Source: Discostella pseudostelligera (lineage: Eukaryota > Bacillariophyta > Thalassiosirophyceae > Thalassiosirales > Thalassiosiraceae). Taken from it: DNA of 13,908 nucleotides. A model generated the notes under the pieces. That model did no database searches, had not been told where the DNA came from, and worked only from the letters and a program-made list of their open reading frames with translations. Each line of letters starts with the position of its first letter. Within the stretch, counting starts at the first letter, position 1. Position numbers and translations under genes: made by a program. The DNA is taken from positions 6,524 through 20,431 of the forward strand of contig JALLBK010000573.1 in NCBI GenBank assembly GCA_036940085.1, in the 5' to 3' direction. Below are positions 2,139 to 11,643 of this stretch, piece after piece.

Positions 2139-2663
2139 ATGCAACGGTGTCTGATGTGGTCATTAAGAGGATTCTCTCCTGTCGGTAGGACATTATCATC
2201 GCAGTTCACCCCTCTTCAATCGTCGCAGCCGCGTTGCTGTCGCGCAATCTGCGAGCCTTCCGTCGCGTCTGCTGCCCATCATCGGTGGAGTTCCATGCTT
2301 ACATTTCAAAAGGACATGAACATCACACGATCTTTCCTTTCATCGATACCCCCAACGATCAACAATAGCGCGCTTACTAATCTTACTTTTTGTGAAACGC
2401 GTAGATGCATGTCAAAATTCCTCTCCAAATCCGCCACGAAACGATTGCCACTAACTACCAAACGCGCGGGGAAGGGATATTACAAGGGTAAGGGTTGCAC
2501 CAGCGAGGGTAGACTGACGTCCAAGGGGAAATTTATCGCCGATCCAGTGAAGAAATTACAATTGATTGTACCTGATTTGACGGGGTTCACTCTCAAACCA
2601 TACATTGCTCGGACGGTGGCCAAAAGTCCTCCGAAAGATCAAACATCGGTTGCTAGTCCATAG
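2139..2663 (+). CDS. MRPL41: Mitochondrial large-subunit ribosomal protein mL41
   Basis: Component of the mitochondrial ribosome large subunit. The recognisable core starts at Met 2409 (M-S-K-F-L-S-K) and continues through a Gly/Lys-rich segment (K-G-Y-Y-K-G-K-G) to V-P-D-L-T-G-F-T-L-K-P-Y, which matches the mL41 signature V-P-D-L-T-G-F-K-L-K-P-Y of human MRPL41. The protein then ends after about 19 residues, shorter than animal mL41. The frame is open upstream to 1980. I chose Met 2139 because the next 35 residues are rich in Arg/Ser/Leu and lack acids, as a mitochondrial targeting peptide should. A frame-neutral 120-nt intron (2285-2404, donor GTGGAG, acceptor CGCGTAG preceded by a TTACTAAT branch-like site) is possible, so the true N-terminus is uncertain. 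Identity is fairly sure; start and exon structure are not. Confidence 0.78.
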   Translation: MQRCLMWSLRGFSPVGRTLSSQFTPLQSSQPRCCRAICEPSVASAAHHRWSSMLTFQKDMNITRSFLSSIPPTINNSALTNLTFCETRRCMSKFLSKSATKRLPLTTKRAGKGYYKGKGCTSEGRLTSKGKFIADPVKKLQLIVPDLTGFTLKPYIARTVAKSPPKDQTSVASP

Positions 2664-3463: not shown

Positions 3464-3979
3464 ATGGCTCCTCTTCAAATCATCTTAAGCATAATAGCTT
3501 TCACCACTGCTGCCATCGCTTTCACACCTACACCCATCTTGCAACGACGGACTTTCCACATGTCGCCACTTCACCAAGCCGGTCCCGGCAAGGGCGGTGG
3601 AGGTGCCGTTGCCACTCCCGGCACCAAGCAAGAAGTGACGACCGTCACTAAACAAAAATCAGAACAAAAGCAGAAGCAAAAGGCAAAGCCCAGCGATCCC
3701 GATCTAAACAGTGATCAAGAATTCGAGGATGCTCCGATGTTTCGTCTCTTTTTGATTTTTGATGAAGGTTACGAGCAGGAACACGTAGTGTCACGTATTT
3801 TTCAGGTAGTCGAGGACTGTTCGGAGGATGAAGCCGCAAGGATTTTTAAGTCGGCATATCAGCAGGGTGAGGCATTTTTGGGCAAGTATCCGAAGGAGAT
3901 TGCAGAAACCTACGCCGAAGCATTGACAAGAAGTGATCCAATCATCTACGCAGATGTTCGTGACGATGAAAATAAATAG
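3464..3979 (+). CDS. clpS-like: Plastid-targeted ClpS-like protease adaptor
   Basis: Predicted 171 residues. ClpS adaptors bind N-degron substrates and hand them to Hsp100/ClpC-ClpP; in plants the complex is plastidic. The start at 3464 gives a signal peptide (M-A-P-L-Q-I-I-L-S-I-I-A-F-T) ending A-A-I-A before Phe20. A Phe at the cleavage site followed by a basic stretch (L-Q-R-R) is the known bipartite plastid signal of diatoms. A Gly-rich then Lys/Gln-rich linker follows (about 40-78), then a ClpS fold at about 91-165: M-F-R-L-F-L-I-F, helix H-V-V-S-R-I-F, helix A-A-R-I-F-K-S-A-Y-Q-Q-G, and A-E-T-Y-A-E-A. Substrate-binding residues differ from E. coli ClpS: the Asn34-Asp35-Asp36 loop reads F-D-E-G-Y and His66 aligns with Tyr. 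An upstream in-frame Met (3401) exists but would spoil the signal peptide. The gene has no intron. Confidence 0.75.
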   Translation: MAPLQIILSIIAFTTAAIAFTPTPILQRRTFHMSPLHQAGPGKGGGGAVATPGTKQEVTTVTKQKSEQKQKQKAKPSDPDLNSDQEFEDAPMFRLFLIFDEGYEQEHVVSRIFQVVEDCSEDEAARIFKSAYQQGEAFLGKYPKEIAETYAEALTRSDPIIYADVRDDENK

Positions 3980-4305: not shown

Positions 4306-7300
4306 TCACTCTCCGTTCGATCTTTTCACATTGGTAACCCAAGACGGAAGATAGCCTCCGTGCGCACCTCCTTGGTTGTCATGTTGTACTTTACCTCCAT
4401 GTCCACGATAATATTCTTTCAACTCATCACGTCCTAACGCACTCTCAAGCGACTCTCGATATTTCTCCAATGAGTGAGCTGCCACTGATGTTCGAACCTT
4501 TGTGAAGCGCAGAAGCGTCTCTACCACTGTTGGTCCCACTAAGATGTTTCCTGTACAACTCTCCTCGAGCAGTACCTCCAGCCCAGCGTGTCGATAGATA
4601 CCTCCACAGAATGGTCCAACAGTAAGCATACTAGTGATAGCATCCCCTTCTGTAGCGACGCGGAATGTGTGCGGAACTCTCCTCTTGTAAATAGTCTTGA
4701 ACGCATTGTTTCCAAGACGCGGTTGCCCATAAGTATAAACTGCAATTGGTGGTCGAAGGCGAGTGACGGTCCTCTTTTGTCTCAACTTTGGTCCACACCA
4801 GTACATTTCACTATCGGCAACCGAAATCGACTTTTCCGCCGCTAGATCAAAATCGTCTAGTGAAGCTGTGCGATTCCTTGGTTCAGCTTCGCTTCCGGCC
4901 ATGCGTTCATTGGTGATTGACTGTTCGATTATAATTTCACAATTGCTAGCAAGGTCGATTGCCAAGAGTTGCGCAAAAGCCCCTCCCATGGAATGGCCAG
5001 TTATATATAGTTTTGGAAGAGTAAACGGTTGAGAATTGTGTCGAGAGCTTTCTACCGATTTGTCAAGTTGACGCTTGAAGACGGACAAAATTGCCTCGAT
5101 GAGCTCATGCCTAACTATGGAATAATTCCGAAGAAATCCTTCATGAACGCAAGGTAGTGCTTGTCTTGCCATTGGAGTTGCTCGAATGATTTCTTTTGCA
5201 CCGGTGGACACAGTTGGCATGTGAGGAGTATCAGTATCGGCATTATCAACGATAGAGCTTACTGAAGGAAAAGTTGACAAAGAAGAGATTTTCAGTCCTG
5301 ATGGTGGGCGTAGAATGTCTTTCAGAATTGACGGCAGGGAAATATTTGTGTCCCACGCCGTTTCATCGACGACGATTGGCAAGCCTGGCCGAATGTTGAA
5401 TGCAGGAATATCACTCATCATCTTTTCAGGCAGCGGGACCTAGAGGAAGAGAGGGAGTACCTGTGGTTAACGCATTCATTGGTCAGGGTTATTTGATATC
5501 CTACACAACTCACCTGACGAAACGACAAATCCGTTTCTATAATGTTGGACATAGAAGCAGATCCTCTAAATGCAATCACAATGATACTATCTTCTTCTCC
5601 TTCTACTTGCTCTGATATATTGCTAGCGACAAACCCGTGCGTGTCGGTTTCACTGTCATGTATCGCATGTTCAAGCTTGAGGCCGATAGAATCCAGCCGC
5701 ATCCTGCCTGGCGCCCAACTATTCAATGAATACTCCATTGGAGAATAATATGATTGCCACGAAGCTTCAAGTAACCAGCACGCTATTTCCACGCAAAACA
5801 CCGGGACGTATATTCCTTTGTATATTGTTCCTTGGCCAAATTTGTCATGGTGTAAAGTAAAGTGTCGGCCATCGACCTTGAGCTGGAATGTGCCGATCAT
5901 GTTCAATTTTTCTTTCAGTGTATGCTGACTTAAGTAACCGTGACTTCTTGTGGGCAGGGGAAATACTCTCCATGTATGTGTGTTACGAGCCAATGCTACA
6001 ACGCTGCGCTTGTCCTTACCCTGATATCTCTTGATCATGTCAGCCATGTCAGACAGAACGTTCTGTTTTGAATGCTGGTCAGACCCGATAGGAAGATCGT
6101 CTGGTGGACGATTGTCTTTGTTTGAAGAATCAAAATGAGATGATGGTAGGAACATGTACGCCACAACTGCTTTAGATGAAGGCGGCAACAATGTCAGCCT
6201 AGGGTCTCTAAAGGTGCATTGGACTCTCTACCAACTCTTAAGGGACTTACCCAAGGAGCATGATGTTGCATACATAATTTTTCCGGGCCCAATGTTTGAT
6301 GCTGTACCAATGTATGGAATTTCGGTCGTTGCGCGGCGTATCAATTTAATCCATAGCTCAGCCTTCGAATCTAATGAGTCATCATAATCCCCACTGATCG
6401 TGGCGTAGGAAATATTGGTCCCCTCACTGCCAGTTAGATTTATTGATTGGAAGTAGAACAATACGATGCAAAAACCGAGCCCAAGTAACAAAATACCAGA
6501 CAGTACCTTGCAGAAGTCGGCGCCGTTGTCGTCGCAGCAAATGAAGCAACGAGAGCAATGGATGTGAGGCTCCATTTGGGAATAGTCGTGATATCAAACC
6601 AAACTAAGATGAGCACTTACTCTAAATGCAAGCTGCGCAGGCCTGGTGCTCAGGAAGGGTTCTCTCCTGAGGCGTTCTCCAGTGACAAAGCTCGCGTGAA
6701 CTATGCAAATGCACCAAATCTGAATGACAACTATCTGCACAACGCAGCTGAACACATAAACCTTGCTGCCGCTGCCGAAACGGTCGGGGTTGAGCTCTAT
6801 TCTCTCTGACGTTGAGTTGCTTACTGATTTAGGGAATCTTGATGCAGCCGCTAGTATTGATGCCACTACACCAAGCACAAGCAGCGTAATTTTGGGAAAG
6901 ATGAACTCCACAAATGAGTCAGAGTGGATATCGTGCTTCATCATTAACGCCATAGAATACGCATTTCCGCCCCCATCGACGTCACCGTATTGTTGATAGT
7001 ACCATCTTACTTGGCCCCATTGATGATCTTCAACAACATCTGTGGGTGTCATGTGTCTTGTCGCTTTTCGTAATTCCAATACACGACGGTGTTGATCAAA
7101 ACGCCGTCTGGCAATATCTGCGGTACTGAAAATGTGGTGTCATATGTCAGGCGTGTTCGTATCATGATGAAAATGCAATAATGCAAAGATGATCTTACTG
7201 GTAACGTAACCCCTGAACAAGACACAGCCAGAGGAACAGAATTCCATGGACGCTTATTGATGAAATAGAATCTGCAGCGAACCGAAACCTTGGACTGCTG

Positions 7301-9669
7301 TAAAGCGAGGGATCAAAGAATGCATAGGATAGGAGCGGATTTTGAAGCATAACCAAACAGAAAAGCAGCCACAGGAGATATCGCCGTTCAGGGAAGGTAA
7401 CCCATGGATCTTGCCACCAAAATCGAATGAATCGTTCTTCGTTCCTAAACCAGACGCGAGATAAAGTTTGACGCAGTGTGCAGGTGATAGAATGAGTTCT
7501 CCCTCCACTTGTCGCTCCATTTTTCACGGTTGCGGCATAAGTGACCTCGTTCATTGAATGCATTTTCCACTGCCAGTAACAGAGAAATATAATCGTAGTT
7601 GTCAGCAATAATATCCGAGTTCCCTCAATGACCTTATCATAAGCGATGCTTTCGTGCTCAATCTTGAACACAGATTTGGTTGCAAGTTCTTTCAACAATT
7701 GCTGGGGGTGTGATGTATCCGCAGTCAACAGAATCATTTCTTCCTCCGACAGAACGATATCGTCATTGATATCACGAACGATATAATCATCATCTGTGCC
7801 TTTACTACCATCATGTCCATCTTCTTGGCGAATCTTGCGATGCGCTACAAGTAGAACGTCGACTCTTAAATCACCCCCAATAAGAACAGCGGCGTTTGGG
7901 AGGGAAAAGTATGCATCAATAATTCCACTACTACCACAGTTCCAAGTCCTTGCATCGGAATCTGCGTCGTTGTCTTTACCGTTCAATTTGCACATCATTT
8001 CTAACCTCTTCGACCCAAGAATCAATACTGGCGACCATGGCTCATTCTTGTCACTCATGGTGTCATTATTTGCCAAAATATCATCATATTTCAAAACAGG
8101 ACGCTGGAACACAATTACTGATACCATCACAGACCCACTTGCAACTAATGACACTGCATTACTTGATAGATTTTTGAAGTTCACAGATCCCGTGAGTGAT
8201 TGAGCCGTGGGCGGAACATTGGATACAACTCCCGATGTAAATGCATGCCCATGAGACATGATGAAGTGATAGCGAGGTTCTATTATGGATGTCCTTGGTG
8301 ATAGCGTCGTAGTTGATTCAAAATGTTGTCCATGGGAAAGCAGACCCACACCCTCTCTCAGTTCGAATGGGTATGAACAAGAGCCATAAAGAGTTGCTTC
8401 TGCCACTGTCGCATTCGACTGACTTGCATCCACAAACCGAAAAGGCACCGGGAAGTATCCTTTTACTGATGCATCATAAGGAGTTGGTATAGAACCACCT
8501 ACTACCTCAGCGCACGGTATCGTCCCATGGAGCGGTCCCACAACAGTGCTTTTCAATTTCGTGTCTCCGTCCAAGAGTACGGCTAATATCAAGACGACGT
8601 ACGGGAGTAGAAGAACGAACCATGACCAGGCAGTACCCAACTCTTCAAGCAAAATTAGTTTTGTCCATGGGTGCATGACTGTGCCATATTCAGAGTCATA
8701 ATGTTCGCTCTGGACATGAATGTCTTTCAAGACGATTGTGGTGGAGTCACTTCGAGGCCTAAGTGATGAATATTTGCCGAACTCGCTTTCTCCGAAATTG
8801 CTCGTTTCATCTGATGTAGATGTCATTAATGCTGGCGATGAACGCACTCGGCTAAGGAGACCCGTGCTCGATCTTCCACTCCCATTCTTTTTGCAGTTAG
8901 AATGAAACCGTACAGCGTGTAATGGTGATTCCTCATCATTCGTAACATAATCTTCCTCAACATCATTGCAATGGGATTTTTCATCGTCTCCGACAGCAGT
9001 TTGGCTCCCCAAGAAAGACGTATACTTCCTCCCTGCGCGATTAGCTGAATTGGCATAGGGCGAAAGCCAAGTTGCAAGTGCATGGGCTAAAGGACTTGTA
9101 ATGCTATGTTGAGAATCGTTGGGATTTGCCTCATCGTCATCATTGTTGCCCACCTCTGCAGCTATGTCATCGTTGCTCCTACTTCTTCCCCCATGATTGC
9201 TACGGATTGGGCTGGCAGATGTTGTTGCATGATAAAAAAAAATCCTCTGGCTGTGTAATGGTGAAAGGTTCTGCTGCGATGAATTATTGAGATTATGTTG
9301 TGAAGTTCTCGACGGAAGCAACCTTGTTGTTTCAGAATCTTCCGATGACGATGAATCATTTATGATATCAGTTAATGAAGAATTGCAGTCATGGTACAAA
9401 CTCTCATCGACATCGTCGTCATTGTCGTCATTGCCAGCCCCTGTTTCTAGAACTAATTCTTCTCCTCGATTGTTATCATCGCGGGAGGGTGAAGCAAAGG
9501 ATGTCATGGCTGCTGTCATCCACGACGACAGCCCGGCAGGGAAGTGCGACGAGAGCGATGATGATGGTGACATCCCATGGTCCTGGTTGCCGCTGATGGG
9601 CGCATCGCTCTTCGGTTCGTCGTCAAATGGGTTCTTTGTTTCCCCCATCGTCATTGATTCGTCACGCAT
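4306..9669 (-). CDS. Wntless/TMEM181-like 8-TM protein fused to class 3 lipase
   Basis: Five exons: 7199-9669, 6621-7125, 6251-6506, 5514-6166, 4306-5439. Introns are 73, 114, 84 and 74 nt, all GT-AG, and the joined frame is 1672 residues. Residues 1-335 are disordered, Ser/Asp/Asn-rich, with N-P-F at 13-15 and E-T-T-R-L-L at 113-118. TM segments: about 347-366, 684-703, 763-782, 804-821, 897-918, 946-967, 993-1011, 1067-1087. The 367-683 segment with sequons at 419, 500 and 535 matches the luminal GOLD-like part of GOST/Wntless proteins. The W-W-Q-D-P-W-V-T-F-P-E-R-R and N-P-L-L-S-Y motifs before and in TM3 also fit that family. Residues 1100-1672 form a class 3 (fungal-type) lipase: I-A-F-R-G-S-A-S, nucleophile Ser1445 in G-H-S-M-G-G, Asp1561 (E-G-D-A-I-T) and His1617 (A-H-S-L-E-K-Y). 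An in-frame TGA lies eight codons upstream of the ATG. Likely an endomembrane protein with a cytosolic lipase; substrate unknown. Confidence 0.8.
5440..5513 (-). other. Intron 4 of the membrane-lipase gene
   Basis: Donor CAG|GTGAGT and acceptor CTCTAG, 74 nt, phase 0. It joins the lipase segment T-D-L-S-F-R-Q to V-P-L-P-E-K-M-M, so the intron lies inside the lipase domain after the oxyanion strand. Confidence 0.85.
6167..6250 (-). other. Intron 3 of the membrane-lipase gene
   Basis: Donor GTAAGT and acceptor AAAGCAG, 84 nt, phase 1. The junction gives C-S-L-V-V-A-Y-M-F-L-P-S-S, completing TM8. It resembles the Wntless end of TM8 (L-A-F-V-Y-S-P-S). Two earlier AGs would lead to TGA. Confidence 0.8.
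6507..6620 (-). other. Intron 2 of the membrane-lipase gene (acceptor uncertain)
   Basis: Donor AGA|GTAAGT is strong. The acceptor CTGCAAG|GTACTG gives a 114-nt intron and creates L-A-F-R-V-L-S-G-I-L-L-L-G-L-G-F, which is TM7 in the position expected for the family. An alternative acceptor at ATGGAG (6570-6571) gives a 51-nt intron and a Cys-rich insert before the same TM. See the findings. Confidence 0.55.
7126..7198 (-). other. Intron 1 of the membrane-lipase gene
   Basis: Donor GTAAGA and acceptor TTTTCAG on the minus strand, 73 nt, phase 2. Joining CA to T gives a His codon, and the exon 2 frame (T-A-D-I-A-R-R-R-F) stays open through 6621. Exon 1 without splicing would hit TAA immediately. 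Confidence 0.85.
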
Positions 9670-10125: not shown

Positions 10126-10945
10126 ATGTCCTTCCTGCGTCCACTTTCCAGCGTCGTGGTCAGGGGGGCCGCCTCTTCCGCCGCCGGGAGGATGCGCCCA
10201 TCATCCGCTGCCGCCGCCGAAATATTTAATGCCACTCCAATCATCACCCACTATCGATCCAAACACTCCGCGACACAAGTGAATCGCCTATTCAAAAAAA
10301 ATCCAGCTAGGTTACGACTACTAAAGAAAGAGGGGGGTATTACTCCTAGCGAACAGAAGCAGTTGGCCATGCAGCAAATTCCGGACCCTGCCTATCCAAC
10401 AATACATAAACCGACCTTTCTAGCTAATGGGTGGTCGGCACCACCTCCACCGGAAGTGCAAATACCTGAATATCCATTTAAAGTTGTTAGGACTGGAAAT
10501 AAACCCTTTGGGGCGGTGGGATTTTTGCCGGTATATCGAGATGTGCGGTGAGTATTAGGTACCATCAGTGTGATGGTTGTGTCGATATTTGACATGAGAC
10601 ATGAAGCCGGGGGGCTGACTTTCTGCAACTCTTACTTACATGCAATCTTGCATTGCTTTACTACCTCCGCGTGTCAGAATCCATGGCACCAAACACACCA
10701 CCATCGTCCGGAATGTAAAAGGAGACACCAACGCATTCATAAACGAACTACGAGCGGTATTGAAACTACCCCAAAATAAAAAAGGCATCTTAACATCGGC
10801 ATCGACGCGTGGACATGGAGGAGGAACGGCTGGACGGGGTGTGAATTCGGAAAATCCCATTCGTATTCGTACCGGGGGGGCAATTGAAGTGAATGGGGAT
10901 TATGCGAGGGAAGTGAAGCGTTGGTTGGCTGGACTTGGATTTTAA
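10126..10945 (+). CDS. MRPL49: Mitochondrial large-subunit ribosomal protein mL49 (Img2 family)
   Basis: Component of the mitochondrial ribosome large subunit. Exons 10126-10547 and 10678-10945, joined across a 130-nt intron (donor CG|GTGAGT, acceptor GTGTCAG) at phase 2; predicted 229 residues. The N-terminus (M-S-F-L-R-P-L-S-S-V-V-V-R-G) is an Arg/Ser/Ala-rich mitochondrial targeting peptide. The Img2/mL49 domain fills the C-terminal half: Y-P-F-K-V-V-R-T, G-F-L-P-V-Y-R-D, then T-T-I-V-R-N-V-K-G-D and finally I-R-I-R-T-G-G-A-I-E-V-N-G-D-Y, ending V-K-R-W-L-A-G-L-G-F. Human MRPL49 has the same order (P-V-Y-K-D, V-I-R-K-V-E-G-D, L-R-I-K-G, W-L-L-E-K-G-F at the C-terminus). An in-frame Met at 10111 is the alternative start. 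Head-to-head with the membrane-lipase gene. Confidence 0.85.
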
Positions 10946-11310
10946 TGGATATGAACGTCGATGATGTGTGTGTCCATGCCGAAGAATAATCAAAACGTTG
11001 AAAGGGATTATATATTCAATTTACTCTTTGTCGACGGAGGGGAATAAATGGCATCGTGTATGCAGACCGACGTCTACCGCATGCATCACCGTCCCAAGTA
11101 ATCTGTCTTCATGCACGTGGTCGATATGGTACAGGAAGTTGGTCGGTGTAGAGTGATAAATAATGAACCGTTTGCTGATTATTGATATCTAGATAGTATC
11201 GATATTTGTTTGTGTTGTTATGTGGGGACTTGGTTCCTCCACCTCCATCAAATACGAGAGTAAAATTTCAAGAATCGACTGTAGTAACAGTGGAGGTGCA
11301 AAAGAAAAAA
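10946..11310. other. Intergenic region between mL49 and tRNA-Val
   Basis: This 365-bp interval holds the mL49 3' untranslated region. One CACGTG is present at about 11114-11119. I see no reading frame of substance, repeat or RNA gene. Confidence 0.5.
11301..11310 (-). terminator. Pol III terminator of tRNA-Val
   Basis: On the minus strand TTTTTTCTTT begins at the base after the tRNA discriminator, a standard oligo-T stop for RNA polymerase III. Confidence 0.75.
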
Positions 11311-11384
11311 TACACTGAATGGGAATCGAACCCACGACCTCAGCCGTGTTAAGGCCGCGTCATAACCAACTAGACCATCGGTGC
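11311..11384 (-). tRNA. tRNA-Val: tRNA-Val (anticodon AAC)
   Basis: The 74-nt minus-strand gene folds as a cloverleaf. D arm GTCT...GAC contains the A box TGGTCTAGTTGG. The anticodon stem CGGCC/GGCTG closes loop TTAACAC with anticodon AAC (reads GTT/GTC as inosine). The T arm GTGGG/CCCAT closes TTCGATT, with B box GGTTCGATTCC. The discriminator is A. The acceptor stem GCACCGA/TCAGTGT has a C-A mismatch at the fifth pair and a G-U at the first. No intron and no encoded CCA. A T6 Pol III terminator follows at once (11310-11305). Confidence 0.88.
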
Positions 11385-11643
11385 ATAATTCAGCACGCAC
11401 CTTTATTATTTATGAATTTAAAAAGCTCTATTGGAGTGTGTGTATGGTGTATGATGTACTATCATATGCTACCATACTGTAATTGCTTTGATTGATGTCA
11501 ATATTTATATCAATGCAACTTGCTAGTGATTTTCTCCCTTGCTACCTCATCCCTCAAACTCAAACTACTGTTACTGTATTTTCACCACGGCCACTTCCTT
11601 GTCGTCTCTTAGTACCATTCTTTTCATTCATGAACATGCTGCT

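Follow-up and report, generated by a model that had tools for sequence, protein, structure and literature searches.

The locus

The 13,908-nucleotide (nt) stretch of the diatom Discostella pseudostelligera analysed here (contig JALLBK010000573.1; hereafter the window) carries on its minus strand, at 4306–9669, one five-exon gene whose splicing and translation give 1673 amino acids (aa) without an internal stop. The product joins a membrane module that, as modelled in relatives, is of the Wntless (WLS) type to a complete class 3 lipase, and we refer to it as the WLS-lipase protein. It is not a product of chance, since two relatives (P0001 and P0002; relatives are numbered in this way throughout) match it with 58–59% identity across the whole protein and the catalytic Ser-Asp-His triad is intact in 33 of the 33 homologs that cover it. 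The fused protein is a diatom protein family. An earlier note on this DNA had joined the same five exons in frame; its coordinates were exact, while its length of 1672 residues was one too low. The coding region is made up as follows.

4306–9669, minus strand: WLS-lipase coding region, 5 exons, 1673 aa (splicing and translation; full length conserved in relatives)
7199–9669, minus strand: exon 1, residues 1–824, last codon split (splicing and translation; 16 relatives stop at 824)
6621–7125, minus strand: exon 2 (splicing and translation; P0035–P0037 alignments stop at residue 993)
6251–6506, minus strand: exon 3 (splicing and translation)
5514–6169, minus strand: exon 4 (splicing and translation; acceptor picked by homology in the eighth transmembrane segment)
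4306–5439, minus strand: exon 5 and stop codon (splicing and translation)

The four introns (73, 114, 81 and 74 nt) are all of the GT-AG type. The exon boundaries agree with places where relatives stop: residue 824, the end of exon 1, is the exact sequence end in 16 of 80 aligned proteins, and residue 993, the end of exon 2, is where the alignments of P0035–P0037 end. Two other acceptors were tried and rejected. First, the acceptor at 6570 for intron 2 (a 51-nt form, giving 1706 aa) adds residues absent from the compared relatives; the 114-nt form yields LAFRVLSG, matching relatives. Second, the acceptor at 6206 for intron 3 (1685 aa) breaks the eighth transmembrane (TM) segment, TM8, and inserts residues absent from the compared relatives; the acceptor at 6170 restores the TM8 stretch as it is in relatives. 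The 1685-aa model was the query for the Pfam scores of the window protein and the first homolog search, and it differs only before the lipase.

Intron 2 (6620–6507, minus strand) is itself mostly open in another frame and, read by eye, encodes a hydrophobic, TM-like stretch, VLILVWFDITTIPKWSLTSIALVASFAATTTAPTSA. This stretch is absent from the relatives compared, and the reading frame is probably there by chance.

The lipase half

4465–5819, minus strand: class 3 lipase fold, about residues 1195–1621, spanning intron 4 (Lipase_3 profile; fold match of P0018)
4990–4992, minus strand: catalytic Ser1446, in GHSMG (33 of 33 covering homologs)
4642–4644, minus strand: catalytic Asp1562 (33 of 33 covering homologs)
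4474–4476, minus strand: catalytic His1618 (H in all 34 homologs with a letter there, of which one, P0041, is a misaligned fragment)

The C-terminal half is a Rhizomucor-type class 3 lipase. Pfam Lipase_3 (PF01764) scores 63.6 bits against a cut-off of 22 on the 1685-aa model, and GxSxG is present. Together with the conserved triad, this bears out the earlier claim that a complete class 3 lipase forms the C-terminal part; all three catalytic residues exist as described there, with a numbering (S1445, D1561 and H1617) that was one too low. By its sequence, the domain would be an active enzyme whose substrates are acyl esters of glycerolipids. Sub-cut-off NCBIfam matches (pro_imino_pep_2, XopAP and SA1320) and weak Pfam matches (PipA, PGAP1 and others) were taken as alpha/beta-hydrolase or chance signal. 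The organism's own genome holds at least 17 Lipase_3 matches, two of them inside exon 5 of the WLS-lipase gene.

The membrane half

8560–8643, minus strand: TM1, about residues 343–370 (hydropathy; helix 10–44 in the P0001 model)
7636–8559, minus strand: luminal beta-rich GOLD-like domain, about 371–678 (beta strands of the P0001 model; WLS alignment)
7570–7635, minus strand: TM2, about 679–700 (P0001 model; hydropathy)
7387–7419, minus strand: WWQDPWVTFPE, residues 751–761, signature WWxxPWxxFPER (conservation in alignments A1 and A2)
7312–7380, minus strand: TM3, about 764–786 (P0001 model; hydropathy)
7204–7281, minus strand: TM4, about 797–822 (P0001 model; hydropathy)
6837–6908, minus strand: TM5, about 897–920 (P0001 model; hydropathy)
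6687–6770, minus strand: TM6, about 943–970 (P0001 model; hydropathy)
6447–6629, minus strand: TM7, about 990–1012, split by intron 2 (gene model; P0001 model; hydropathy)
6135–6278, minus strand: TM8, about 1069–1089, split by intron 3 (weak hydropathy; helix 776–792 in the P0001 model)

The GOST family comprises GOLD-domain seven-TM proteins, namely Wntless (WLS/GPR177), TMEM87A/B, GPR107/108, GPR180, TMEM145 and TMEM181. All eight hydrophobic segments that had been seen beforehand in the window protein are marked by hydropathy at a lenient threshold, TM8 weakly (1.46; stronger in relatives). At this threshold the luminal domain and the lipase each show two further hydrophobic stretches. The models of two relatives have human WLS as their top fold match, which covers almost all of WLS; residues 14–797 of the P0001 model align with WLS 7–496 over 420 residues, about 180 more than in rows that match by the seven TMs only, and identity in the structural alignments to WLS is 8–14%. 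A test of GOST membership found the seven-TM bundle homologous to that of WLS/TMEM87A and, between TM1 and TM2, a luminal GOLD-like beta domain (from the model and the WLS alignment, not searched separately). Four cysteines of this domain (386, 431, 560 and 578) are conserved in 26–28 of 28 rows. Furthermore, PF06664 (WLS-like_TM), which is precomputed for P0002, P0005 and P0026, reaches 29.2 bits in P0002, over the cut-off of 28.3, and this relative exceeds the Lipase_3 cut-off too; P0026 (27.1), P0005 (26.3) and P0071 (25.7) lie just below it, a piece of P0001 scores 18, and P0034 and P0068 gave no PF06664 match at E ≤ 0.1. As modelled, then, this half of the protein belongs to the Wntless type of GOST module and has a luminal domain. 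This is the module that the earlier note had proposed, and the structure prediction that it called for yielded a beta domain aligned with WLS. TMEM181, which the note had named beside Wntless, had no row among the matches listed. The stretch WWQDPWVTFPE, read there as a GOST-type motif, is conserved as a signature of the diatom WLS-lipase family.

Several points weigh against this assignment. On the window protein itself (1685-aa model) PF06664 scores 11.1 bits, below the cut-off; thus, of the two domains expected from a Pfam search of the joined protein, Lipase_3 was found and WLS-like_TM was not. Among the proteins and pieces whose bits were seen, only P0002 is over the PF06664 cut-off, and the TM-module profile has no PDB sequence match at E ≤ 10. 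Model confidence is moderate, with a predicted local distance difference test (pLDDT) of 73.1 for P0001 and, for the other relative, 63.0 and a predicted TM-score (pTM) of 0.53. Foldseek TM-scores to WLS are low (0.26–0.31 by query, 0.38–0.46 by target) at a root-mean-square deviation of 12–15 Å, and TMEM87A (15.6) ties with the best G-protein-coupled receptor (GPCR) row in the fold comparison. Finally, five relatives, described below, are without the luminal domain. A weak match to 9vee_F (MyoD family inhibitor domain protein) was taken as low-information.

The fusion in relatives

The first protein search, each search scoring about 8000 candidates, returned 42 homologs with up to 67% identity over the queried region. 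Excluding the window row, 33 of the 42 have more than 150 lipase residues as well as more than 250 residues of TM2–TM8, the N-terminally cut P0025 and P0011 among them, and 27 also have more than 120 luminal-domain residues. Their database names ('putative lipase', 'Lipase (class 3)', 'Fungal lipase-type domain-containing protein', 'hypothetical protein') reflect the lipase half and leave the membrane half unnamed. Five of the fused relatives are transcript-derived; P0001, P0002 and P0034 are MMETSP open reading frames (ORFs) marked complete, and P0014 and P0023, of Minutocellus polymorphus and Chaetoceros sp., are likewise MMETSP-derived. Both halves stand in one ORF in these transcript-derived relatives, which speaks against the two separate mRNAs that had been named as a possible refutation. 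We give hardly any credence to an annotation artefact in which two adjacent genes were wrongly joined. The window gene model does rest on genomic sequence, and two of its intron choices are ambiguous by splice signals; however, the five transcript-derived fused ORFs and the conservation across centric and pennate diatoms speak against such an error.

In the midpoint-rooted tree, a fully supported split separates 8 rows (Nitzschia, Pseudo-nitzschia) from 26 (thalassiosirid, Chaetoceros, Minutocellus). Since the fusion is on both sides of this split, it is probably old within diatoms. Catalytic residues are absent in nine of the 42 first-search proteins (P0026 and P0035–P0042), whose alignments stop at 993 (three), 1172 (one), 1217 (four) and 1299 (one). 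These look like ORFs truncated at introns or contig ends, the alternative being true unfused copies. P0068 (Cylindrotheca, 928 aa) is a similar case.

No non-diatom relative was seen among the 13 of 82 proteins with a readable organism or genome code, at about 8000 candidates per search; two of the 13 were checked in taxonomy and 11, including the code Psemu1, we take to be diatoms. A search of the organism's own genome with the protein sequence found the window gene and no other. The lack of a PF06664 match over this genome is uninformative, since none of 14 control genomes matched and the window gene itself was missed. No relative was present among 21 pattern matches in viral contigs.

Neighbouring genes

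The region is flanked by genes for two mitochondrial large-subunit ribosomal proteins, one of the MRP-L27 family at 2295–2660 (plus strand) and one of the Img2 family at 10126–10942 (plus strand), which we take to be mL41 and mL49, respectively. The Img2 match lies on 10619–10942, and the stretch 10126–10548 of this gene gave no match. A ClpS-domain protein (PF02617, 32 bits) with an N-terminal extension is encoded at 3464–3976 (plus strand) and is possibly organelle-targeted. An EF-hand (calmodulin-like) gene at 1433–1068 (minus strand) probably has further exons on both sides, and a tRNA-Val(AAC) is found at 11310–11385 (minus strand).

The N-terminal tail and topology

9619–9633, minus strand: NPFDD, residues 13–17, NPFxD-type endocytosis signal (NPF in 50 of 56 tails, shuffled mean 1.5)
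9316–9333, minus strand: acidic dileucine ETTRLL, residues 113–118 ([DE]xxxL[LI] in 45 of 56 tails, shuffled mean 14.4)

Ahead of TM1 lies an N-terminal tail of about 340 residues that is otherwise fast-changing and was taken as disordered. Tails were compared in 56 proteins (window included) that start with methionine and have at least 180 residues of tail, out of 75 with a TM1 anchor among 83 sequences. NPF falls within the first 90 residues in 50 of the 56 (shuffled mean 0.38), and NPF[DE] is found in 47 (shuffled mean 0.22). These counts are inflated by relatedness; clustering at 70% tail identity leaves 45 clusters, with NPF in 41 and the dileucine in 34. A third tail motif, SPLxxA (ITSPLAHALATW in the window; tail at about 9669–8650, minus strand), occurs in 42 of the 56 (shuffled mean 0.53).

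NPF-type and dileucine signals act from the cytosol. This places the N-terminus in the cytosol and, since eight TM segments follow, the lipase as well. NPFX(1,2)D is described as a yeast endocytosis signal in an excerpt of PMC7889276, and a dileucine of the present form is reported, in the available part of PMC9964374 (citing Schreiber et al. 2017), to be needed together with a signal peptide for targeting to the diatom vacuole. The conserved NPF and acidic dileucine thus suggest that the protein may cycle through endosomes and the vacuole. Counting against this are the tails in which the dileucine (11 of 56) or NPF (6 of 56) is missing, and the additional demand for a signal peptide in the diatom rule, as worded in that part of PMC9964374.

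Charge and sequon patterns were counted over 28 rows, with the window included and the relatedness of the rows left in. Lysine plus arginine make up 13.9, 15.1 and 22.4% of the predicted cytosolic loops 2–3, 4–5 and 6–7, and 7.1, 8.4 and 7.6% of the luminal domain, loop 5–6 and loop 7–8, respectively. Compared with shuffled sequence, sequons are at 1.50x in the luminal domain and 0.31x in loop 4–5; in the remaining segments the ratio is near 1 or the segment too short. The six TM-module sequons (N419, N500, N535, N927, N1015 and N1023) all stand on predicted luminal segments, as had been noted before. From these patterns and the tail motifs we infer that both termini, including the lipase, are in the cytosol, the orientation predicted for the lipase at the outset. 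There are exceptions to the pattern: loop 3–4, predicted luminal, has 10.8% lysine plus arginine and is net positive (+8.7 per 100); the tail, predicted cytosolic, is acidic with only 9.6%; and the sequon ratios of loop 5–6 (1.03), loop 7–8 (1.15), the tail (0.96) and the lipase side (0.91) are uninformative.

With an inverted topology, the termini would be in the lumen or outside and the lipase would be an ectoenzyme. That the lipase-side sequons are at about the shuffled rate (0.91) and not depleted would fit this, as would the nearest solved relatives, fungal lipases and a feruloyl esterase, which are secreted enzymes. Most loop charges, the sequon enrichment at 371–678 and the tail motifs oppose it, and so does the extracellular or luminal location of the corresponding GOST domain (as given in an excerpt of PMC9711517). 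We hold the inverted arrangement to be very improbable.

Loss of the luminal domain

Where the N-terminus of a relative is uncut, TM1 and TM2 are 225–334 residues apart; in five pennate-type proteins (P0029, P0030, P0032, P0033 and P0034) only 12–24 residues lie between them, with the triad kept. All eight membrane segments are kept in four of the five. The gene model of P0033 (Pseudo-nitzschia multistriata) is without TM8, perhaps through a gene prediction error. The five share a six-row group with P0031 (Nitzschia inconspicua), which retains the luminal domain. P0025 was rejected as a further loss, being merely cut at its N-terminus. On the tree as drawn, with P0025 left out, two luminal-domain changes fall within the six-row group; one is possible, and the fork is open. 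Given the loss in five relatives, the membrane bundle and the lipase form the core of the protein; some pennates can dispense with the luminal domain. These losses, as well as the NPF and acidic dileucine of the tail, are new observations here.

Because of these losses, the most serious rival to the reading set out below is a module that is an anchor only: GOST-derived, but having lost its cargo or ligand function, it would tether the lipase and sort it to one membrane. The kept triad and, in four of the five, the kept membrane segments fit such a role, as do the conserved sorting motifs; moreover, the luminal-less P0034 is a complete transcript ORF. Elsewhere, however, the luminal domain is conserved together with its four cysteines (26–28 of 28 rows), and WWxxPWxxFPER and FLSTRPAQLAYR, at cytosolic helix ends, are among the best conserved stretches, beyond the needs of an anchor. 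A pure anchor is possible, if rather doubtful.

Proposed mode of action

We consider it reasonably probable that the protein is a sorted, active lipase of the cytosolic leaflet, anchored by a GOST module and with both ends in the cytosol. The tail, through clathrin-adaptor-type signals, is predicted to direct cycling between the plasma membrane, endosomes and the vacuole membrane, the compartment being read from the tail sequence. The membrane module would place, and possibly regulate, the lipase at the cytosolic leaflet, and the lipase would hydrolyse acyl esters of membrane or storage glycerolipids.

WLS holds lipidated Wnt by means of its GOLD domain and seven-TM cavity (excerpt of PMC9711517). 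By analogy, a WLS-like cavity in the diatom protein could take up lipid and either supply it to the lipase or gate the enzyme; control of the enzyme by whatever lipid or cargo occupies the cavity is a guess. At its boldest, this would make the protein the first GOST protein to carry an enzyme of its own, in which cavity-held lipid or lipidated cargo feeds or gates the cytosolic lipase, so that a lipid sensed at, or extracted from, one face of a membrane (endosomal, vacuolar or plasma) is cut at the opposite face. We regard this as unlikely. If true, GOST proteins would be ancient lipid-handling devices, with Wnt export as one use.

A further alternative is a receptor-enzyme, in which a luminal or extracellular ligand shifts the seven TMs and switches on the lipase, which then makes a lipid messenger. 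The layout is shared with oomycete GPCR-bigrams, in which the seven TMs come first and the C-terminal catalytic domain is predicted intracellular (part of PMC6033456), and there are invariant residues in the cytosolic loops. On the other hand, it has been argued that GOST proteins may not be compatible with canonical GPCR signalling (excerpt of PMC9711517), the luminal domain is lost in five relatives, and there is no known ligand. A receptor-enzyme is, in our estimate, distinctly improbable.

For the anchored cytosolic lipase that we favour, the implications are as follows. GOST proteins are seen as receptors or carriers; what they do with lipids beyond exporting Wnt is an open question. Fused partners are usually functionally linked; a GOST-lipase fusion retained across diatoms hints directly at function, and lipase activity would offer a readout for conformational or lipid control. 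In addition, diatom lipid turnover, which is poorly known, gains a candidate for a membrane-bound lipase that bears sorting motifs.

Comparison with known systems

GOST proteins, class 3 lipases and fusions of seven-TM modules with enzymes are each known; their combination was not found among the matches listed in the open-licence literature (titles and abstract starts), where no Wntless/GOST-lipase fusion is described. The main text of the GOST paper (PMC9711517) does not contain the word lipase, that of PMC5784254 has no word starting with it (phospholipase-like words uncounted), and the available parts of PMC8536745 and PMC6841712 hold nothing on a Wntless-lipase architecture. In a survey of Phaeodactylum tricornutum, 18 class 3 lipases are given, of which J47614 is slightly hydrophobic with nine predicted lipid-modification sites (part of PMC9964374).

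The lipase resembles Rhizomucor miehei lipase (1tgl/4tgl) and Aspergillus niger feruloyl esterase in its GHSxG, complete triad and alpha/beta fold, and its YTYGQPRVGN-type stretch aligns to R. miehei YTQGQPRVGN. Unlike R. miehei-type lipases, it is fused to a membrane module, is predicted to be cytosolic and carries long inserts, one of which, of about 60 residues, separates the nucleophile helix from the QPRLGN strand. In DAGLA and DAGLB, too, several TMs at the N-terminus precede the catalytic domain of a lipase. The DAGL lipase is class 3, and we know of no fungal-type QPRVGN stretch in it. With one catalytic domain and four TMs (excerpt of PMC9205912), DAGLB differs from the diatom protein, which has eight TMs and a WLS-like fold.

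GPCR-bigrams (GPCR-PIPK and others) of oomycetes and amoebae, some of which act on phospholipids (part of PMC6033456), share with the diatom protein a seven-TM module followed by a C-terminal catalytic domain that is predicted intracellular. They differ in that the seven-TM half is Wntless-type here, with a fold nearest WLS, and in that a lipase is outside the PIPK, INPP, AC, PDE, TKL and AP domains listed in that part of PMC6033456. The closest likeness in the membrane half is to WLS and the GOST family: TM1, a luminal domain and seven more TMs, with the WLS-like_TM profile in some relatives. What sets the diatom protein apart from these is the N-terminal tail of about 340 residues at one end and the lipase at the other.
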